The notes beneath the pieces were generated by a model. The model was not told the origin of the DNA, ran no database searches, and was given only the letters and a program-made list of their open reading frames with translations. DNA of 32,297 nt. Origin: Archangiaceae bacterium (GTDB lineage: Bacteria; Myxococcota; Myxococcia; Myxococcales; Myxococcaceae). Shown piece after piece: positions 9,280-30,714 of this stretch. A program made the position numbers and the translations under genes. The stretch covers positions 1-32,297 of the forward strand of contig JAACJQ010000080.1 in NCBI GenBank assembly GCA_016879935.1, in the 5' to 3' direction. The stretch's first letter is position 1. Each line of letters begins with the position of its first letter.

Positions 9280-10236
9280 TCAGGGCAGCGTGCCCATGGT
9301 GACGCGTCGAAAGCCGTACTTGTTGAGCGTGGCTCCGGGGCGAACGAAGGCCGCGATGCCGATGCCCGAGCCTTTGGCGACCCGCGCCGGGTTCGAGCCG
9401 TCGTAGCCCGCGACCAGCACGCCGTTGATGTACAGCGAGAGCACGTTGCCCACCCGCGTGGCGCGCACCACGTCACCATCGGCGGGAATCGGTGCGGCCG
9501 ACGCGTTCACGTTCGCGATGCCAGTGAAGTCAGACGGGCCTCCGCTCAAATAGAGAATGTCGACGCCGCCGCCCGAGTTGAAGAGAAACTCGTTCCACGT
9601 GCGCACGCCCGCGTCGCTGGAGCAGCCAAGCAACAACTCGAGCTCGTGGTTCGAGCCGCTCGCGTTCGGGTTGTAGCCGGGCTCCTTGTAGATGACGGCT
9701 TCGATGAACTGGTCGCCGGTGAAGCCGGGCACGAAGGCGAAGCTGTCATCGTAGTCGATGCCGCCGTGCGTGCCGAAGGCAATGACGGTCTGGCCATCGG
9801 AGGCGAGCCCCACGCGCATGCTCGTGAGGTTTCCCGGAGGTGCGTTGCCTCCCGTGCCCTGCGTGTTGTTCGTCCACACGCCGCCGCCAGAGAGCGGGTT
9901 CTCGGCGGACGCGCTGCCGAAGTCGATGGAGTAGCGGCCTCCGTCGGCGGAGCGACCTGCGTCGAGTGGTGGGCCGGCGTCGATTCGCGCGCCCGCGTCC
10001 ACCGCAGCGCCGGCGTCGACCAGCGCTCCCGCGTCCACGCCGCCAGCGTCGACCGTTCCGGCATCGATGATCAGACCCGCGTCGATGATCAGCCCCGCGT
10101 CTGCGCCCGCGTCGCCGAGCAAGCCCGCGTCCGCGTCGGTCGAGCCGGCGTCGAGCGGAACGGCCGCGTCGTTGTTCGTCGCGACGCCTTCGCAGCCCAT
10201 CATCGCCACCACGAGCAGCCCGAGAACGCGATGCAT
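9280..10236 (-). CDS. Surface lipoprotein with Asp-Ala-Gly tract and a jelly-roll-like domain
   Basis: The 318-residue product starts MHRVLGLLVVAMMGC; the lipobox makes Cys15 the lipid anchor. Residues 29-94 hold twelve DAG triplets separated by one to three residues, a flexible acidic linker common in myxobacterial lipoproteins. Residues about 100-318 look beta-rich and resemble lectin/LamG-type sandwiches (for example SLYINGVLVAGYD near 285), so a carbohydrate-binding role is possible but unproven. An in-frame GTG 39 nt upstream exists, but the signal peptide fits the ATG at 10236. CAGAGT lies 7 nt before the ATG and there is no Shine-Dalgarno. Confidence 0.8.
   Translation of the reverse strand: MHRVLGLLVVAMMGCEGVATNNDAAVPLDAGSTDADAGLLGDAGADAGLIIDAGLIIDAGTVDAGGVDAGALVDAGAAVDAGARIDAGPPLDAGRSADGGRYSIDFGSASAENPLSGGGVWTNNTQGTGGNAPPGNLTSMRVGLASDGQTVIAFGTHGGIDYDDSFAFVPGFTGDQFIEAVIYKEPGYNPNASGSNHELELLLGCSSDAGVRTWNEFLFNSGGGVDILYLSGGPSDFTGIANVNASAAPIPADGDVVRATRVGNVLSLYINGVLVAGYDGSNPARVAKGSGIGIAAFVRPGATLNKYGFRRVTMGTLP
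9955..10152 (-). repeat. DAG codon tandem repeat
   Basis: Imperfect 9-15 bp units encoding (x)x-Asp-Ala-Gly, repeated twelve times inside the lipoprotein gene. Units vary at the codon before GAC, giving Val, Ile, Leu, Gly or Ala. This is a coding low-complexity linker and likely to change length between strains. Confidence 0.8.
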
Positions 10237-22099: not shown

Positions 22100-22141
22100 C
22101 TATATAGCGAACCGGCTATATAGCCTTTGCGCTATGGATAG
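22100..22141. promoter_or_regulatory. ArsR operator/promoter: three boxes at 16-bp period
   Basis: CTATATAG occurs at 22100-22107 and again at 22116-22123. A degenerate third copy, CTATGGATAG, starts at 22132 and contains the ATG of the regulator gene. The starts are exactly 16 bp apart. The second box is the centre of a perfect 12-bp palindrome, GGCTATATAGCC (22114-22125). The AT-rich boxes are unusual in this GC-rich DNA and could also supply the -10 (TATATA). With TTGCCT at 22096 as a -35, the message would start near the ATG. Binding by the downstream ArsR protein is inferred from position. Confidence 0.6.
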
Positions 22142-22478
22142 CGAACGCATGAACCTGGTCTTCGCGGCGCTGGCCGACCCGACGAGGCGCGCCATCTTGC
22201 AGCGGCTGGCGACCGGTGAAGCGACGGTGGCCGAGCTGGCCGAGCCCTTCGACGTCGCGCAACCCACCATCTCCCGGCACCTTCGAGTGCTCGAAGAGGC
22301 GGGGCTCATTCGTGCGGGCCAGGACGCCCAGCGCCGGCCTCGCACGCTCGTGGTGGGCGGCCCACTCGAGGCGGTCGACGACTGGCTCGCGCCCTTCCGC
22401 GCGCAGTGGGAGCGCCGCTTCGACCGCCTCGAACACTTCCTCGCAGGAAAGAAGCAGAAGAAGGGAAAGTCGCCGTGA
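22134..22478 (+). CDS. ArsR-family transcriptional regulator
   Basis: The 114-residue product is a winged-helix repressor: FAALADPTRRAILQRLATGE (9-28), the helix-turn-helix TVAELAEPFDVAQPTISRHL (31-50) and the wing RVLEEAGLIRAGQDAQRR. It lacks metal-binding cysteines, and the ending (WLAPFRAQWERRFDRLEHFL) is that of the ArsR subgroup paired with SRPBCC proteins. Its last codons overlap the next gene (GTGA), so the two are translated together. No Shine-Dalgarno is seen; the operator boxes run into the start codon, which fits a leaderless, self-repressed gene. Confidence 0.9.
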   Translation: MDSERMNLVFAALADPTRRAILQRLATGEATVAELAEPFDVAQPTISRHLRVLEEAGLIRAGQDAQRRPRTLVVGGPLEAVDDWLAPFRAQWERRFDRLEHFLAGKKQKKGKSP

Positions 22479-22906
22479 CTGACACCATCGACAGGGCCGA
22501 ACGCACCTTTCACTTCGAGCGTCTGCTCGACGCCTCACGCAACGACGTCTTCGACGCGTGGACGAAGCCCGATCAGCTCTCGCACTGGTGGGACCCGACC
22601 GGGAAGAAGCTCACGGCCTGCACCATCGACCTGAAGGTGAACGGCCTCTTCCGCTTCGTGAGTGACGGCCACGCGCCGCCGTTCGAGGGCGTCTACCGCG
22701 TCGTCGAACGCCCCAGCAGGCTCGAGTTCGAGGCGATGGGTGCGCTCGGGAAGATCGTGCTCGAAGACGCGGCCGGCAAGACGCGCATGCGGGTCTCCAT
22801 TCGTTCTCCCTCGGCCGAGCACTTCGACATGTTCTTGAAGCTGGGCGTCAACGTCGGCACCAGCACCACGTTCGACAACCTGGCGGCGTTCGTTCGCCGA
22901 AAGTGA
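22475..22906 (+). CDS. SRPBCC (AHSA1-like) domain protein
   Basis: The 143-residue product is a START/Bet v1-like single-domain protein of the AHSA1 group: FERLLDASRNDVFDAWTKPD (15-34), LSHWWDP, CTIDLKVNGLFRF and FEGVYRVVERPSRLEF. Such proteins bind a hydrophobic ligand in a deep cavity and are often encoded with an ArsR repressor, as here. The GTG start overlaps the ArsR stop codon. The convergent cydB gene ends 2 nt away. Confidence 0.85.
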   Translation: MTDTIDRAERTFHFERLLDASRNDVFDAWTKPDQLSHWWDPTGKKLTACTIDLKVNGLFRFVSDGHAPPFEGVYRVVERPSRLEFEAMGALGKIVLEDAAGKTRMRVSIRSPSAEHFDMFLKLGVNVGTSTTFDNLAAFVRRK

Positions 22907-22908
22907 CG

Positions 22909-23868
22909 TCACGCGCCTCGCGCGGCACGACGACCGAAGACCGAGAAGAGCAGCGCGAGGCTCGGCAACACCACCGCCGCGGCCACCACGCTCGCGACGA
23001 GCAACACCTGCAACGTCGCCGGGTGCGCGCGGCTCGAAGCCAACGTGTGCTCTCCCCACACGAGCACCTCGCCCTTCGCCACGGCCCACCCGATGACGAC
23101 GGTGGCGGTCAGCGCTCCGACGACGAGCCTCGCGGCGCGGTAGCGACGCATCACCAGCATCGCGACGGCGACCGAACCGAAGAGCGTGCCCGCCACGGCC
23201 GGGAGCCCACGACCGACGCGCGCGACGAGCTGTGGAGCAACGTCTGAGGCAGCCGCGAGCGCCAGCCACGAAGCGACACCTGCCACCACGAGACTCACGA
23301 TGCCGCGCCGACGAAACGACTCGCGCAGCACCGGCTCCTGCGCGGCGAGCGCGAGATAGGTCGCCGCCAGCGCCGCGACGAGCGCCAGCATGAAGGCGCC
23401 ACCCGCGACGACGAAGAGGTCGAGCGAGAGTGACAGCGGCTGCTCCCGCACCAGCGCCGCGCCCATCGCGCCGAGCAGGAAGGGGCACAGAATGCTGGCA
23501 GCCGAGAAGAGCGCGCCGAAGCGGCGCCTGCGCACCGGGTCGCTGTCGTAGTGCCGGAACGTGAAGGCCGAGCCACGCATCACCAGGCCCAGCGCGTAGA
23601 GCGTCAGCGGCGTGAAGAGCGCCGTCGTCAACGACGCGAACGCCGGAGGGAACGCGCTGAACAGCATGACGAAGACGAAGATGAACCAGACGTGGTTCGC
23701 CTCCCAGATGGGCCCGATGCTGGCTTCGATGAGCGCACGCTGTTCGTGTCTCCGAGGCCCCGAGGCCAACAGGTCCCACACGCCGCCGCCGAAGTCGGCA
23801 CCACCGCCGAGCACGTAGAACACCAGGCCACCCACGATGACCGCGGCGATGGCGACCTCAGGCGCCAT
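22909..23868 (-). CDS. cydB: Cytochrome bd-type quinol oxidase subunit II
   Basis: The 319-residue product has eight to nine membrane helices and the family's N-terminal signature: GADFGGGVWDLLA (23-35), then IEASIGPIWEANHVWFIF (47-64), which holds the conserved Glu and Trp. It is shorter than E. coli CydB, like many subunits of the cyanide-insensitive (CIO) group. It pairs with subunit I to make the membrane oxidase that reduces O2 with quinol without pumping protons. Its start overlaps the end of cydA by 11 bp, so the two are translationally coupled. No CydX-like small gene follows, because the next gene converges 2 nt away. Confidence 0.9.
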   Translation of the reverse strand: MAPEVAIAAVIVGGLVFYVLGGGADFGGGVWDLLASGPRRHEQRALIEASIGPIWEANHVWFIFVFVMLFSAFPPAFASLTTALFTPLTLYALGLVMRGSAFTFRHYDSDPVRRRRFGALFSAASILCPFLLGAMGAALVREQPLSLSLDLFVVAGGAFMLALVAALAATYLALAAQEPVLRESFRRRGIVSLVVAGVASWLALAAASDVAPQLVARVGRGLPAVAGTLFGSVAVAMLVMRRYRAARLVVGALTATVVIGWAVAKGEVLVWGEHTLASSRAHPATLQVLLVASVVAAAVVLPSLALLFSVFGRRAARGA

Positions 23869-25186
23869 GGGGCACCACCTTCGCCGAGAGGGTCGGCTCG
23901 GGCTCGCGGAACAGGCCGCGCAGCAAGCCCACGACCGTCACGCCGAGGAAGACATAGAGCCCACTGAAGACGGCGAGCCGGGCCTCGAGGCCCTCGACCC
24001 GAGTCGCGGCGTCGGCGGTGAGCAGCAACCCTCGCACCACGTACGGCTGCCGGCCCCACTCCGTCACCAACCAGCCGGCCTCCATCGCCAGCGGAGCCGC
24101 CACGCCCGCGGCCACCAGCGCAAAGAGGAACCAGCGCTGCGTCGGCCACTGCTTCTTCCGCCACCGAACCGCGAGCGCGAAGAGCGACAGCGCGGCGAGG
24201 AAGCTGCCGGCGCCGACCATCACCTGGAAGGCGAGGTGCATGCGCGTGACGGGAGGGCGCTCCGCGACCGGCACCTCGTCGAGCCCCGTGATGACCGCGG
24301 CCGGGTCGCCTTTGCCGAGCACCGACAACCCACACGGCACCTCGAGGCCGAAGCGCACCGCGCCTGTCGCTTCGTCGGGGAGCCCACCGATGAGCAGCGG
24401 CGCGCAGGCCTTCGTCGTGAAGTGCGCCTCCATGGCCGCCAACTTCCACGGCTGGTGCGCCGTCACCTGCTTCGCCGAGAAGTCACCCGAGAGCGGGAGC
24501 AGCAGCGCCGCGCTGGCTCCGATGGGGAGCGCGACGTCGAGGGCGAGGCGGTGAAAGCCCGGCTCCCGACCGCGCAGCAGCGCCGCACCGTGCACGGCGG
24601 CCATCACGAAGCCCGTCACCGCGTAACTCGAGAGCAACACGTGAACGACCTGCGTCGCTGCCGACGGTGCCGTGAACACGAGCCACGGCTGGTCGAGGAA
24701 CGCACGCTCCCCGTCCCACTGCACCGGCACCGGCACGTTCATGAACGCATTCACGACGGTCACGAAGCCGGCCGACGCCGCGCCCGACAGCGCCACCATC
24801 ACGCCCGAGAACCGGTACACGCGCCGCGACACCAGCGCGCGGCCGTAGAGCACGATGCCCAGGAAGATGGCCTCGAGGAAGAACGCCACCCCTTCGAGCG
24901 CGAACAACGGGCCGATGACTTCTCCGAAGCGCCGCATGAACGCTGGCCACAGCAGCCCGAGCTCGAGTGACAGCACCGTGCCCGAGACGGCCCCGACGGC
25001 GAAGAGAATCGCCGTGCCCTTCGCCATTCGTTGGGCCAGCAGCCGGTAGCGCGGGTCGTTCGTGCGGTCGGCCAGCGCCTCGGCGACGACGAGCAGCAAC
25101 GGCAGGCCGACGCCGAACGCAGCGAAGACGATGTGAAACGCCAGCGAGAGCCCCATCTGCGCGCGCGCCAGCGTGGCGGTCTCCAT
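23858..25186 (-). CDS. cydA: Cytochrome bd-type quinol oxidase subunit I
   Basis: The 442-residue product carries all expected haem ligands: His18 (AFHIVFAAFG; b595), His182 (VVHVLLSSYA; b558) and Met323 (AFQVMVGAG; b558). The Glu residues in ALEGVAFFLEA and the GRQPY signature (378-382) are also present. The region after QPWKLAAMEAHF (about 245-256), where quinol binds, is short, as in the CIO subgroup rather than the long-loop E. coli type. ATG at 25186 has GGAGG 4 nt upstream; the 16-codon longer frame lacks such a site. It lies 93 nt after the marR stop on the same strand, and one promoter before marR may serve all three genes. Confidence 0.92.
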   Translation of the reverse strand: METATLARAQMGLSLAFHIVFAAFGVGLPLLLVVAEALADRTNDPRYRLLAQRMAKGTAILFAVGAVSGTVLSLELGLLWPAFMRRFGEVIGPLFALEGVAFFLEAIFLGIVLYGRALVSRRVYRFSGVMVALSGAASAGFVTVVNAFMNVPVPVQWDGERAFLDQPWLVFTAPSAATQVVHVLLSSYAVTGFVMAAVHGAALLRGREPGFHRLALDVALPIGASAALLLPLSGDFSAKQVTAHQPWKLAAMEAHFTTKACAPLLIGGLPDEATGAVRFGLEVPCGLSVLGKGDPAAVITGLDEVPVAERPPVTRMHLAFQVMVGAGSFLAALSLFALAVRWRKKQWPTQRWFLFALVAAGVAAPLAMEAGWLVTEWGRQPYVVRGLLLTADAATRVEGLEARLAVFSGLYVFLGVTVVGLLRGLFREPEPTLSAKVVPHGA

Positions 25187-25279: not shown

Positions 25280-25738
25280 TCACTCGAGCACGGCCAACAG
25301 GCGTCGAAGCGAGCGCTTGAGTGCCTCGAGCTCTGCCTTCCCGAGCGCCGGAGCCACGTCTCGTTCGATGCGCTCGAGCACGCCCGTTCCGTGCAGCATC
25401 GCCTCGACGCCTGCCGCCGTGAGCGCGACCCGTCTGGCCCGCGCGTCATCGGGGTCGGGCTCGACGCGCACCAGGCCCTGCCGGGCGAGCTCGGCGACGA
25501 GCGGCTGCACGGCCTGCTTCGTCACTCCAACGTGCTCGGCCAGCGCGGTGATGCGAATACCCGTGGGCGCCTGCAGGTAGGGCAGCAGCTTCGTGTGCGC
25601 CTCACGCAACACCGGCCGGCCCGCCTCGGCGTTCACCTGACTGATGCCCCGCTCGTTCCACAGCTGCCCACAGCGAATCAGCAAGAACCCCAGGCTGTCC
25701 GCCTGCCGCTTTCGGAGCCGTTCGAGTCGCCTCTGCAT
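25280..25738 (-). CDS. MarR-family transcriptional regulator
   Basis: The 152-residue product is a dimeric winged-helix regulator. Helices at about 1-55 and 120-152 would form the dimer interface. The DNA-binding part is GIRITALAEHVGVTKQAVQP (60-79), LVAELARQGLVRVEPDPDD and the wing ARRVALT. No redox-active cysteine pair is evident (one Cys, in IRCGQLW), so a small ligand is more likely than a thiol switch. The ATG has TATCAT 6 nt upstream and no Shine-Dalgarno, and an operator-like dyad covers that hexamer. The gene heads the cydAB cluster. Confidence 0.9.
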   Translation of the reverse strand: MQRRLERLRKRQADSLGFLLIRCGQLWNERGISQVNAEAGRPVLREAHTKLLPYLQAPTGIRITALAEHVGVTKQAVQPLVAELARQGLVRVEPDPDDARARRVALTAAGVEAMLHGTGVLERIERDVAPALGKAELEALKRSLRRLLAVLE

Positions 25739-25739
25739 T

Positions 25740-25774
25740 GGTCAATGATACTTGACGATGATTCACCAGGCACG
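25740..25774. promoter_or_regulatory. Probable MarR operator, copy 1 (marR-cydAB promoter)
   Basis: The element starts GGTCAATGA, then CTTGACGAT and ATTC. It contains the dyad TCAA-N6-TTGA (25742-25755). On the minus strand the dyad covers TATCAT (25745-25750), the likely -10 box, 6 nt before the marR ATG. A bound repressor would block the polymerase. A matching element lies at 26228. No other stretch of this pattern was noticed in the window. Confidence 0.6.
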
Positions 25775-25934
25775 TCTCGACCGAAGACGAATCGTGGGAG
25801 TCGCCGACCTCGAGCGCCGCCCAGCACGCGCCGCGCAGGAGGCGAGCCGGTCGGAACGCCTCAGAAGGCCGCGATCGCGCGTCGACGTCGCACCCGCCAT
25901 GATGTCGCCCCCTTCTTCACCCTCGAGGAATGCC

Positions 25935-26183
25935 ATGACGAAGCTCGCGCAGGTGATGGTGTTGATGTGCTCGCTGTCGGCGTTCGCCGGCGACAAGGAG
26001 AAACCAGGCGCGTCACCGGCACCGAAGCAGGCCTCGGTGCTCCCGGGGTGCGCGTGCTCGACGGGCCTGACGCTGACGTCGGTGGTGGTGCACAACTGCA
26101 CGTGTCCCGGCGATGACGGCAAACCGCTCCAGTGCGTGGTGGCGGCCGGCGGCGTGGGCGTCTCGGTTTCGTGCTCACGCTGA
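25935..26183 (+). CDS. Small secreted Cys-rich protein
   Basis: The 82-residue product has a signal peptide (MTKLAQVMVLMCSLSAFAG, cleavage after FA). The mature chain has a Pro/Ala/Lys linker and then six cysteines arranged as CAC, CTC, C and C between about 39 and 80, suggesting disulfides or metal binding. GAGGAA lies 6 nt before the ATG, which fixes the start; the frame is open back to 25752 but the upstream residues are unlike protein. It sits between two copies of the MarR-type element, but nothing shows that it belongs to that regulon. The family is unknown. Confidence 0.6.
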   Translation: MTKLAQVMVLMCSLSAFAGDKEKPGASPAPKQASVLPGCACSTGLTLTSVVVHNCTCPGDDGKPLQCVVAAGGVGVSVSCSR

Positions 26184-26227
26184 CGGCGCGTTCCTGAGAC
26201 ACGTCGAGAAGACCGGTCGAGCCAGAC

Positions 26228-26262
26228 GGTCAATGACCCTTGACGATTATTCGTCAAGCGCG
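26228..26262. promoter_or_regulatory. Probable MarR operator, copy 2 (dehalogenase-like gene)
   Basis: Twenty-eight of 35 bases match copy 1 at 25740, in the same orientation. Here a second, perfect dyad is present: CTTGACGA and TCGTCAAG with a 4-bp spacer (26239-26258). The TCAA-N6-TTGA dyad is also kept. The hydrolase ATG lies 13 nt beyond the element. A shared regulator is the natural explanation. Confidence 0.6.
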
Positions 26263-26275
26263 ATTGACTATCTTG

Positions 26276-27142
26276 ATGACCACCACGCCAGCGTTTCCGT
26301 TCTCGTCGAAGCTCGTCGATCTGGGCGATGGCGAGGCCCTCTCGGTCACCGACGTCGGCAGCGGCCCGACTGTCGTCTTCGCCCACGGCACGCCGACGTG
26401 GTCGTACGAGTGGCGTCATCTGCTCCGCGCGCTCGAGCCCCGCTTTCGGTGCATCGCCGTCGACCACCTCGGCTTCGGGCGCTCGGCGCGCCCCTCGCAC
26501 GCCGACTACTCACCCGAAGCGCACGCGCGCCGGTTCTCGAAGGTGCTCGAAGTGCTGGGCGTCGGCAGCCATCACCTCGTGGTGCACGACTTCGGCGGGC
26601 CCATCGCGCTCGATGGTGCGCTCGCCCACCCCGAACGCGTCGCCTCGGTCACGCTCTTCAACACCTTCGCGTGGCCGTTCACGGGCGACCCGGCTTCGCG
26701 GCGGAGAGCACGGCTCGCGGGCACGTCGTTGTTCCGCTGGGCGTATGGCGCGCTCAACCTGTCGTTCGTCATCTCACGCTCGGCGTGGGGCGACCGCAAG
26801 ACGGTGACCGACGAGACGTGGCCGCCCTACCTCTCGGTCTTTCCCGACGCGGCGTCACGGCGTCTCGTGCTCTGGGCGCTCGCGAAGAGCCTGCTCGGCT
26901 CGACCGCGTTCTTCGAGTCACTGTGGGCGCGCCGTGAGCGCCTGGCGTCGACCCCCATGCACGTCGTCTGGGGAATGAAGGACTCGGCGTTTCCACCCTC
27001 GGCGCTTGTGAAGCTTCGCGAAGCCTGGCCTCACGCGTCGGTGCACGAGCTGGCCGCGGCCGGGCATTGGCCCCACGAGGAGCAGCCCGAGGTCTGCGCC
27101 CGCTCGCTCCTGCAGTTCCTCGACGGGCTCACTTCCCCTTGA
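26276..27142 (+). CDS. Alpha/beta hydrolase, haloalkane dehalogenase-like
   Basis: The 288-residue product has an Asp nucleophile in VVHDFGGPI (Asp105), unlike the Ser of esterases, with the acid Asp236 in WGMKDSAFPP and His264 in AAGHWPHEEQP. HGTPTWSYEWRHLL (38-51) matches the oxyanion region of haloalkane dehalogenases. Yet the usual halide-holding residues differ: Thr39 stands where Glu or Asn is usual, and Phe106 replaces the Trp after the nucleophile. An epoxide hydrolase-like or other C-X hydrolysis is possible, and dehalogenation is not certain. The start is the ATG after the operator; a TTG inside the operator is open but unlikely. It overlaps the convergent lipoprotein gene by 14 bp. 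Confidence 0.82.
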   Translation: MTTTPAFPFSSKLVDLGDGEALSVTDVGSGPTVVFAHGTPTWSYEWRHLLRALEPRFRCIAVDHLGFGRSARPSHADYSPEAHARRFSKVLEVLGVGSHHLVVHDFGGPIALDGALAHPERVASVTLFNTFAWPFTGDPASRRRARLAGTSLFRWAYGALNLSFVISRSAWGDRKTVTDETWPPYLSVFPDAASRRLVLWALAKSLLGSTAFFESLWARRERLASTPMHVVWGMKDSAFPPSALVKLREAWPHASVHELAAAGHWPHEEQPEVCARSLLQFLDGLTSP

Positions 27143-27977
27143 GCTCGAAGAGCTGCTTCTTCTCCTGGTCGACGCCGACGCGCAGGCCGATGAGCTCGGC
27201 GTGCACGAGCCGGCCGGCGCCCCAGTCCTCCATGCCGCCGCCGTAGCCCACGGTCTCGCCTGCGGCCTTCTCCTGCACCTTGCCCACCTTGCGCAGCTTC
27301 TTGTCGACCTCGCCCTTGCCGAAGGTGAAGACGACGCGCGCCGTCAGCCCGAGCGCGTTGGTCTGCTGAAACGTCTTCGCCTCACTCATGGACTTGATGG
27401 GCAGCGAGAAGGCGACGGGCGAGGCGAGCCACATGTTCTGCGAGAACTCCGAGCCCTCCTTGGCCGCCGACGCGTTCGGAGACCCGGCTTTCGCCTCGGT
27501 CCACGCGATGGCGATGCGGCCGATGGAGTCGGTGCAGTCGACGGTTCCCAGCACCTCGATGGGCAGCACGCCCGCAGCAGCGTCGTGCGGCTTGAGCGTC
27601 ACCTGATTCGGCGCGCGCAGCCGGTACATGAACCGCTTGCCTTCGAACGACTTCGCGACGTCGGCGCGGCGGGCGGCGTTGGCCTTCTTCTCTTCGGGCG
27701 TCGCCCCGGGCGCTTCACCGGGGAAGAGGGCCCACAGGCCTTCGGGGCACGGGCCATCGGGCACCAGCCGCTCGCTCGAGGCGTCGTCGTAGGGCGGGTC
27801 GAGCTTCACCGTGTCGACCGGAGCGACCAGCTTGTCTTCCTTCTTCGCGGCCTTCTCGGCCTCCTGCTTCTCTTTGAGCTCGGCGAGCTGCTTCTCGGCG
27901 CGCTTCGCCCGGTTCTCGGGGCACGCCAGCAGGAACATCGCCACCAGACTCACGGCCACCGCGCGAAGGCTCGTCAT
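27129..27977 (-). CDS. Lipoprotein with Lys/Glu-rich coiled-coil start
   Basis: The 282-residue product starts MTSLRAVAVSLVAMFLLAC with a good lipobox (LLAC), so Cys19 is lipidated. Residues about 23-50 are a charged coiled coil (RAEKQLAELKEKQEAEKAAK), then a Pro/Asp linker. A domain of about 200 residues follows with strands such as FMYRLRAPNQVTLKP and LTARVVFTFGKGEV. No family is recognised. TACGGT lies 9 nt before the ATG. The Gly-rich lipoprotein gene ends 76 nt upstream on the same strand. Confidence 0.75.
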   Translation of the reverse strand: MTSLRAVAVSLVAMFLLACPENRAKRAEKQLAELKEKQEAEKAAKKEDKLVAPVDTVKLDPPYDDASSERLVPDGPCPEGLWALFPGEAPGATPEEKKANAARRADVAKSFEGKRFMYRLRAPNQVTLKPHDAAAGVLPIEVLGTVDCTDSIGRIAIAWTEAKAGSPNASAAKEGSEFSQNMWLASPVAFSLPIKSMSEAKTFQQTNALGLTARVVFTFGKGEVDKKLRKVGKVQEKAAGETVGYGGGMEDWGAGRLVHAELIGLRVGVDQEKKQLFELKGK

Positions 27978-28053
27978 GGGTCGCGCACCGTACACCAGCT
28001 GCGCGAAGGCTCAGCACTGATGGTCTTGCGCGGTGAAGGCGCCCGCCTGCGGC

Positions 28054-30714
28054 TCAGAACGAGCGGAGCTGGAACGACTGACCCGCCGGGCCGACGTTGG
28101 CACCCGTCTCGGCAGGCCCACCGTTTCCTGCGGTGCCCGGCTGCGAGTAGGTGATCTGCGTCGTCGTGATGGAAGACGCCGACGTGGTCGCGACGCCGAT
28201 GACCGCGCCACCTGCCCCACCTGCGCCGTGCCCGCCACGCCCGCCGCGGCCGCCATCTCCACCACGCCCACCGATGCGCGAGACACCCTGCGAGCCGACG
28301 TCGTGCGTCGACCCTCGGCCGAAGCCCTTGAGACCGCCGTCACCACCACGGCCTCCGCGCCCGCCAGTGCCGCCGCTGCCGGTCGTGACAGTCACCTGTC
28401 GCGCGGTCACCTGCGAGCTCCAGAGAACGAGGCCGATGCTCGCACCACCCGCGCCACCCGTGAGGCCGCGCGTGCCGAGACAGCCGCCCGAGCCACCACC
28501 GCCACCAGCGCTGCCGTACGTGTAGCACTTGCAGTAGCAGACGATGGAGATGCACTCGCGAGTGCAGCCGCCGCCGCCGCCGCCACCACCGCCGCCACCT
28601 TCGCCAGACGTTCCGCTCGTGCCGAAGGTCAGCGCGGGCGCGAGATAGCCAGCGACCGTGAGGGTTCCGAGGCTGGCAGGAGCGGCTGCGTTCGTTCCGT
28701 CAGTGCCATCAGCTCCAGTGGCGCCGAGCTGCTGCGCGGTCGCCGTGTCGTAGCTCGCGCCAGGGTCGCTGTTGCCGCCGCTGCCCGTACCACCCGACGA
28801 GCCGCTGACGCCGCTGCCGCCGCTGCGCCCACCGGGGAACGGGTTCCCGTCGCTCGCGGTGCCGCTGTAGTTGTGGCTCCAGCCGGGAATGCCGCCGTTG
28901 CCGCCGCGCTTGCCGCAGGTGCTGGAGCCGCCCGCGCCGCCGTTGGGCCACGCAGCCGTTCCGCCGCAGATGCCGAAGCCGAGCACGTTGGTGGTGTCGT
29001 AGATGTTGCCCGCGACGCCGACGGAGCCGTTGTTGCCATTGTCGCCCGTCGTGCCCGGAGCACCATCGCGGCCGTTGGCGCCGTTGCCCGCGCGCACCTG
29101 AACGAGCTCGAGCCGCACACCGACCGAGTTCGAGATGCGCGCGCCATATGCCACCGCACCGTTGCCGTTCGAGTCGACGCCGGTCGCGTTGTCCGAGCGG
29201 AACTGGAGGAACTGCAGCATCACGCCCGCGTCGACCGCCACGCCGGCGTCGCCGATGACGAGAGCCGGGTTCCCTCCGGCGATGACGGTCGCGTTGGTCG
29301 ACGCGCGCGTCCACCTCAGGGTCGTCGGCTGGTAGCCGCCCGCGATGTTCTTCCCCGAGACGCTGGCGACGACGAGCGGGCCGGTGAAGGCGCCCGACGA
29401 GACGTAGACGTCGCGCTTGTTCTGCGCGACCGCCTTGCGCAGGCCCTCTTCGATGGTGAGCACCGGCTCGTCACGCGTGCCGATGTTGGTGTCGTCACCG
29501 GTGAGCGAGACGAAGATGCCGTTGTTCACCTCGCCGTCCATGCCGTCGCAGTTCGCGTCGGTGAAGGCGACGTCGGGCAGGTCGACCGCGCTCGTGAAGG
29601 TGCACTGGTACTCGCAACCGTTGGCCGGGTCGGTGTCGAGGTCGAAGAAGCCGGTGTTGCAGGTGAAGGCGCACTGCCCAGCGGCGCACGACGAGGTCGC
29701 GTTCGTGGCCACACAGCGGCGGCCGCACATGCCGCAGTGGTTCACGCTCGTCTGGGTGTTCTCTTCGCAGCCGTCGGTGAGCCGGCCGTTGCAGTCGTCG
29801 AACGGCGCCGTGCACATGCCGATGTCGCACTGGCCCGCGAGACAACGCGGCGTCGCGTTCTGCACCATGCAGGCGTTGCCGCAGCGGCCGCAGTTGGCCA
29901 CGTCGGTCTGCAGGCTGATGCCGTTGTCGGGCGTGCCGTCACAGTCGTCGTCGAGGCCGTTGCAGAGCTCGATGCCGGCGTCTCCGGGCTTGCAGACGAA
30001 GGTGCCGCCGTCGGCGCATGACGGCACGGTGCGCTGGCAGACGCCCAGCCCGCAGGTGACGGTGGGCAGGTCTTCGTCGGTGCGGCCGTCACAGTCGTCG
30101 TCGCGGCCATTGCAGCTCTCGACGACCGGGGTCTCGGCGGTGCAGGCGGAGTAGCCACTGACGCCGTCGCAGGTGCGCGTGCCGCTGCAGGTGCCGAAGC
30201 CATTCGCGTTCATGCACGAAACCATCTGGCCCTGGTTCGCGGCGGTGCAGTCGCAGCTCGCCGAGCTCGGCGTGCACTGCTGCGACTTCGGCCGGCCGTC
30301 GGTGCCCACGCCGTTGAGGCAGCGGTACGAGGTCGGGCACGTCTGGTCGAACGCACAGTCGCGGCCGCACACGCCTTCGCCGTTCACCACGATGCACTTG
30401 TCGGACGGGTACGGGCAGTCGCTGTCGAGCTGGCAGGCCTGGCAGAGCCCACCGCGGTCGGGAACACACGCGTAGCGCAGCGGCGTCAGCTGCGTGCAGA
30501 CCTCGGTCGCCATGCAGCCGTCGGCGCACTTGCGGCGGCAGACGGGCTGCGTGCCCGGCGCGCCTTCGCACAGGCCCGTCGCGCACTGCTCGTCACGCAG
30601 ACAGTCTTCACCTTCCTGCTTCAGCGTCATCTGCGCCGGCGGCTCGCGGTTGCACGTGCACCCGGCAACAGAGAGGGTGAGCGCGAAGGCAACGAGGGCT
30701 GAGCGGCTGAACAT
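28054..30714 (-). CDS. Large Cys-rich and Gly-rich surface lipoprotein with MopE-type motifs
   Basis: The 886-residue product starts MFSRSALVAFALTLSVAGC, a lipobox with Cys19. GGGAG lies 9 nt before the ATG. Residues 30-370 hold about fifty cysteines in EGF-like or dickkopf-like spacings, and two MopE-type metal-binding motifs, CNGRDDDCDG (201-210) and CNGLDDDCDG (251-260). Residues 405-545 read like a right-handed beta-helix (DUF1565 style: GTRDEPVLTIEEGLRKA). Residues 545-860 are Gly-rich, collagen- and PGRS-like (GGRGGRGGDGG), and include a cluster of five cysteines (717-730) between two Gly runs. Proteins of this make are common on myxobacterial cells. Function is unknown; surface adhesion or metal binding is plausible. 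Confidence 0.85.
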   Translation of the reverse strand: MFSRSALVAFALTLSVAGCTCNREPPAQMTLKQEGEDCLRDEQCATGLCEGAPGTQPVCRRKCADGCMATEVCTQLTPLRYACVPDRGGLCQACQLDSDCPYPSDKCIVVNGEGVCGRDCAFDQTCPTSYRCLNGVGTDGRPKSQQCTPSSASCDCTAANQGQMVSCMNANGFGTCSGTRTCDGVSGYSACTAETPVVESCNGRDDDCDGRTDEDLPTVTCGLGVCQRTVPSCADGGTFVCKPGDAGIELCNGLDDDCDGTPDNGISLQTDVANCGRCGNACMVQNATPRCLAGQCDIGMCTAPFDDCNGRLTDGCEENTQTSVNHCGMCGRRCVATNATSSCAAGQCAFTCNTGFFDLDTDPANGCEYQCTFTSAVDLPDVAFTDANCDGMDGEVNNGIFVSLTGDDTNIGTRDEPVLTIEEGLRKAVAQNKRDVYVSSGAFTGPLVVASVSGKNIAGGYQPTTLRWTRASTNATVIAGGNPALVIGDAGVAVDAGVMLQFLQFRSDNATGVDSNGNGAVAYGARISNSVGVRLELVQVRAGNGANGRDGAPGTTGDNGNNGSVGVAGNIYDTTNVLGFGICGGTAAWPNGGAGGSSTCGKRGGNGGIPGWSHNYSGTASDGNPFPGGRSGGSGVSGSSGGTGSGGNSDPGASYDTATAQQLGATGADGTDGTNAAAPASLGTLTVAGYLAPALTFGTSGTSGEGGGGGGGGGGGCTRECISIVCYCKCYTYGSAGGGGGSGGCLGTRGLTGGAGGASIGLVLWSSQVTARQVTVTTGSGGTGGRGGRGGDGGLKGFGRGSTHDVGSQGVSRIGGRGGDGGRGGRGGHGAGGAGGAVIGVATTSASSITTTQITYSQPGTAGNGGPAETGANVGPAGQSFQLRSF
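28567..28599 (-). repeat. GGC/GGT codon run (poly-Gly)
   Basis: Eleven consecutive glycine codons, GGC with a few GGT, lie inside the large lipoprotein gene. This is a trinucleotide tract liable to slip in steps of one codon, without frameshift. Confidence 0.75.

Follow-up and report, generated by a model that had tools for sequence, protein, structure and literature searches.

RESULTS

Genes at the marR-hydrolase locus

In the window (the whole stretch of 32,297 nucleotides that was analyzed), the marR gene (25280 to 25738, minus strand) encodes a 152-amino-acid MarR-family winged-helix regulator, which we propose to be a repressor. Two family profiles scored above their curated cutoffs (PF12802, MarR_2, 39.4 bits against 27; PF01047, MarR, 31 bits against 24.6), and the structure model (pLDDT of 95.3) has a fold that agrees with those of MepR, MarR, and further MarR-type regulators. 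Following marR on its strand are cydA (23858 to 25186) and cydB (22909 to 23868), which encode subunits I and II of a cytochrome bd-type oxidase (PF01654 at 405.8 bits and PF02322 at 183 bits); regulon membership is not established for either gene. Convergent with cydB, an ArsR-family regulator gene overlaps that of an AHSA1-domain protein (22134 to 22906). On the other side of marR, a segment at 25775 to 26227 carries the gene for an orphan 82-amino-acid, Cys-rich, signal-peptide-like protein with no Pfam match (25935 to 26183, plus strand). Beyond it is the gene for an alpha/beta hydrolase resembling subfamily III haloalkane dehalogenases (26276 to 27142, plus strand).

The hydrolase carries a catalytic triad of D105 (nucleophile), H264 (base), and D236 (acid) that is invariant in its family. 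In the subfamily III enzyme DhmeA, the pentad consists of N63, W130, D129, D258, and H286 (PMC10503415). The halide-binding Asn and Trp of this pentad, N63 and W130, aligned in our hydrolase to T39, which is invariant, and to F106, where aligned relatives have F or Y, and the NCBIfam haloalkane dehalogenase profile PRK03204 scored 151.9 bits, below its curated cutoff of 466. The initial annotation had called this protein a C-X bond hydrolase, a reading that we do not retain since the whole family has other residues at both positions where subfamily III haloalkane dehalogenases bind halide. Members of subfamily III have themselves been described as dehalogenase-like and of low activity, and one of them, OleB, is a beta-lactone decarboxylase (PMC10503415).

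A repeated element with a dyad core

Two 35-bp sequences at 25740 to 25774 (copy 1) and 26228 to 26262 (copy 2) match at 28 of 35 positions in the same orientation, confirming the repeat first reported. Dinucleotide shuffling left 29 of 30 sequences without any 28/35 pair within 1 kb, and a search with the first 25 bases (3 positions free, at most 3 mismatches) returned two matches genome-wide, both at the marR-hydrolase locus. The 35-bp element is real and far above chance. The sole further same-strand pairs of at least 28/35 within 1 kb in the window are two, starting near 9968 and 29922 (9968 to 10040 and 29922 to 30110).

The core of the element is a 16-bp dyad, GTCAA-N6-TTGAC. Exactly three exact copies occur in the window, within 530 bp of one another, compared to a mean of 0.024 and a maximum of 1 per shuffled window. 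Across the 9.5-Mb genome there are six, three of them at this locus, and the reversed control occurs once. Of the other three exact dyads, one falls within a coding frame (L049), a second follows the 3′ end of a frame resembling a kinase gene (L050), and a third precedes a lipoprotein-like frame (L048); being single sites near chance level, they were rejected as regulon members.

Copy 1 holds one dyad, GTCAATGATACTTGAC (25741 to 25756), which is 2 nt from the marR ATG (25738) and for which orthologous dyads are known. At its center is TATCAT (25745 to 25750, minus strand), a −10-like hexamer correctly placed by the earlier reading 6 nt before the marR ATG, which may belong to the marR promoter. 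Copy 2 holds a putative tandem operator of two dyads 24 nt apart, GTCAATGACCCTTGAC (26229 to 26244) and GTCAAGCGCGATTGAC (26253 to 26268), with the second 7 nt from the hydrolase ATG (26276). The initial annotation overlooked this third dyad at 26253 to 26268. The palindrome that it described in copy 2, CTTGACGA-N4-TCGTCAAG, does lie 13 nt before the hydrolase ATG and consists of the inner arms of the two adjacent dyads. Copy 1 keeps TATCAT at the dyad center, and ACCAGG stands at the expected start of a second dyad; what appears to be a decayed second dyad may span 25764 to 25780, the counterpart of GTCAAGCGCGATTGAC in copy 2. Both dyads are intact in copy 2, and GGTCAT replaces TATCAT. Among 14 marR-proximal copies of the dyad, positions 11 to 16 are invariant, and TA-N3-T stands at the center in 7. 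Since a promoter scan found no consensus sigma-70 promoter at the locus, the overlap between dyad and promoter is one that we infer.

The dyads are conserved with marR

The element had been expected to recur in related genomes with the same genes. We found its dyad core with marR and the hydrolase gene, not beside cydA. Every marR orthologue examined with 58% identity or more has a short gap to its divergent partner that is filled by two exact or near-exact dyads, and the same layout precedes the divergent partner in three orthologues of 36 to 45% identity. The dyads are spaced 22 to 24 nt apart (38 in L057), and the marR-proximal dyad is 2 to 4 nt from the marR start in most orthologous loci. 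The marR orthologues of G010, G006, G004, G007, G050, and G040 (43 to 77% identity) are divergent to a hydrolase orthologue with two dyads between, and the same is true in Myxococcus qinghaiensis and M. eversor (L059, L062) and in L110 to L113. In Myxococcales, marR is paired with this hydrolase in nearly all cases; the 11 of 145 genomes that hold a close orthologue of one also hold a close orthologue of the other, as a divergent neighbor, and no further genome holds either. A 40-bp tandem operator (at most 2 mismatches) was found once each in 5 of the 145 Myxococcales genomes (controls, 0), separating marR from the hydrolase gene in every case except the genome studied here, where it lies at the hydrolase gene. 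The hydrolase orthologue of G040 (L044, 4676 to 5575) is frameshifted, representing a pseudogene or a sequencing error, and the marR and dyad alongside are intact.

Some loci have exchanged the partner gene. L057 and L060 (the latter from Sandaracinaceae) keep the dyads and MarR, and the other partner is a 265-amino-acid protein without a Pfam match that may be methyltransferase-like judging by a glycine-rich motif. In L063 the dyads stand with marR and the partner is a DUF4336 protein; in L114 the partner is a CMD-family protein. Because the dyads stay with marR in L057, L060, and L063 while the partner changes, MarR is their likely binder. The arms TTGAC/GTCAA are not unique to MarR operators, and another regulator could bind the dyads with the adjacency of marR being incidental. 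We consider this very improbable, as the dyads accompany this MarR subfamily in different lineages, in several genomes stand 2 to 4 nt from the start of marR, and occur in tandem form nowhere else in the 145 genomes.

Among MarR homologues of 32 to 46% identity beside DUF4336 or other genes, the dyad is often missing, and it is absent at the more distant MarR genes beside DUF4336 in L116, L017, L117, and L118. Upstream of 24 nonorthologous MarR genes, no exact dyad was found, and one site reaches 9/10. A MarR-DUF4336 linkage of its own is seen in L043, L047, L017, L118, and L063 (40 to 46% identity), where the genes are divergent and usually lack the dyad. EstR/OhrR redox sensors have a conserved sensing cysteine near the N terminus. 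Residue C23 of MarR is invariant in the hydrolase-linked orthologues and absent in L057, L060, L063, and L114, so that several dyad-bearing orthologues do not share this candidate redox cysteine.

Taken together, the repeated element is very probably the predicted binding site of the MarR-type repressor, through which it would control marR and the neighboring hydrolase gene, and co-repression of the two genes via paired putative operators is strongly supported by this conservation. Of the small regulon first proposed, comparative genomics strongly supports the predicted marR autoregulation and control of the hydrolase; the parts on cydAB and on C-X bond chemistry are not supported.

cydAB as a neighbor of marR

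The initial annotation envisaged a MarR responsive to a toxic or lipophilic ligand, which would induce both a CIO-like oxidase, encoded by cydAB, and a carbon-halogen bond hydrolase. The sole link between cydAB and marR here is their arrangement: cydAB lies downstream on the same strand, 93 bp separate the marR stop from cydA, and no terminator was found between them, so that read-through upon derepression is possible. However, relatives carry cydAB elsewhere. We looked at 29 cydA relatives in other genomes, three of them of 79 to 86% identity and from the same genus, and neither marR nor TCAA-N6-TTGA lies within the 1.5-kb flanks of any. In G004, marR and cydA are both present but on different contigs. 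In the stretch leading up to the cydA ATG, 53 of the final 74 alignment columns match G003, where another gene lies upstream. Because this leader matches G003 despite the different upstream gene, it appears that cydAB came to lie behind marR together with its leader. The halide-binding pair is also replaced throughout the hydrolase family, and we judge a joint oxidase-dehalogenase response to be quite improbable. Rather, cydAB appears to be a recent neighbor of marR and no established part of the switch; lying behind marR only in this genome, it might receive read-through.

A local insertion and proposed division of the operator

The segment between the operator copies is absent from orthologous marR-hydrolase regions. 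The Cys-rich gene does lie between the two sites, as previously noted, but it belongs to a local insertion of about 450 bp and is not a shared component of the locus. Among 98 other genomes searched, the Cys-rich protein has one homologue, on contig 393 of G004; marR of that genome is on contig 456 and so lies apart from it. The hydrolase gene and the next gene (27129 to 27995) keep their synteny in G004 and partly in G006, which makes the hydrolase side the conserved side.

We propose that this insertion separated marR from the hydrolase gene in this genome, with each gene retaining an operator at the ancestral distance from its start. Copy 1 would have retained the marR-proximal dyad and TATCAT and lost the second dyad, while copy 2 would have retained both dyads and had TATCAT replaced. 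From the comparison of the copies, complementary degeneration of the two operators is a reasonable reading. A more far-reaching version is that a bidirectional MarR operator-promoter was duplicated around the inserted gene and degenerated complementarily (copy 1 losing the hydrolase-proximal dyad and copy 2 the marR −10-like hexamer). In that case, a single ligand-released repressor would govern the orphan secreted Cys-rich protein as well as cydAB, the latter through relocation. We regard this version as unlikely. The 35-bp copies also flank the inserted segment like a target duplication, as would a dispersed repeat or mobile-element ends with no regulatory role. With only two copies genome-wide, and with uninterrupted single-locus orthologues carrying the same dyads equally far from the start codons, this origin is extremely improbable.

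DISCUSSION

Our model, which as a whole we hold to be highly probable, is that GTCAA-N6-TTGAC serves as the operator of the local MarR, that an ancestral divergent pair was later split, and that release of MarR by a ligand switches on both genes. In the ancestral layout, marR and the hydrolase gene would have been divergent neighbors whose start codons stood a few dozen bases apart, a gap taken up by two dyads. A pair of MarR dimers bound there would occupy both promoters and keep RNA polymerase from either start. Binding of a ligand to MarR, probably of the hydrolase substrate or of a compound related to it, would then free the DNA and turn both genes on. The proposed two-gene marR-hydrolase switch is conserved and rather ordinary in myxobacteria; the split of the operator is the unusual part, and the interrupted form could show how a shared bidirectional operator divides once its two genes separate.

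This analysis gives an apparently undescribed myxobacterial MarR subfamily, whose main target would be a dehalogenase-like hydrolase, a defined candidate operator that experiments can test: GTCAA-N6-TTGAC, most often as two sites 22 to 24 nt apart. A literature search, with most subscription papers outside its reach, found no description of the marR-hydrolase pair or its operator. The intact two-gene form is present in isolated Myxococcus species, and therefore a ligand screen would be practical.

Both proteins have relatives of known structure. MepR and other ligand-responsive MarR regulators share the winged-helix MarR fold with our MarR but differ in operator and target, with about 20% identity in the structural alignment. 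The nearest solved structure to the hydrolase is that of DhmeA (E value of 1.3e-47, TM score of 0.85, 33% identity; PMC10503415). Its Asp-His-Asp triad occupies the same positions, whereas T39 and F106 take the place of its halide-binding N63 and W130 (T and F/Y in aligned relatives).

As a regulatory system, EstR/EstC of Agrobacterium tumefaciens is the closest precedent. EstR represses estR and the divergent estC through two footprinted operators that overlap the promoters (PMC5201249). As at our locus, a MarR-family gene is paired divergently with an alpha/beta hydrolase gene, and the hydrolase-type orthologous loci likewise have two operators, here predicted from sequence, in the shared region, through which both genes would be repressed. 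The systems differ in the operator, which is GTTATCGCGATAAC for EstR and GTCAA-N6-TTGAC here, and in the signal, as EstR is an OhrR paralogue that senses organic hydroperoxides, a signal that we do not carry over to this MarR. Finally, estR and estC share one undivided region, whereas in the window the pair is interrupted and the region appears to have been split by an insertion.
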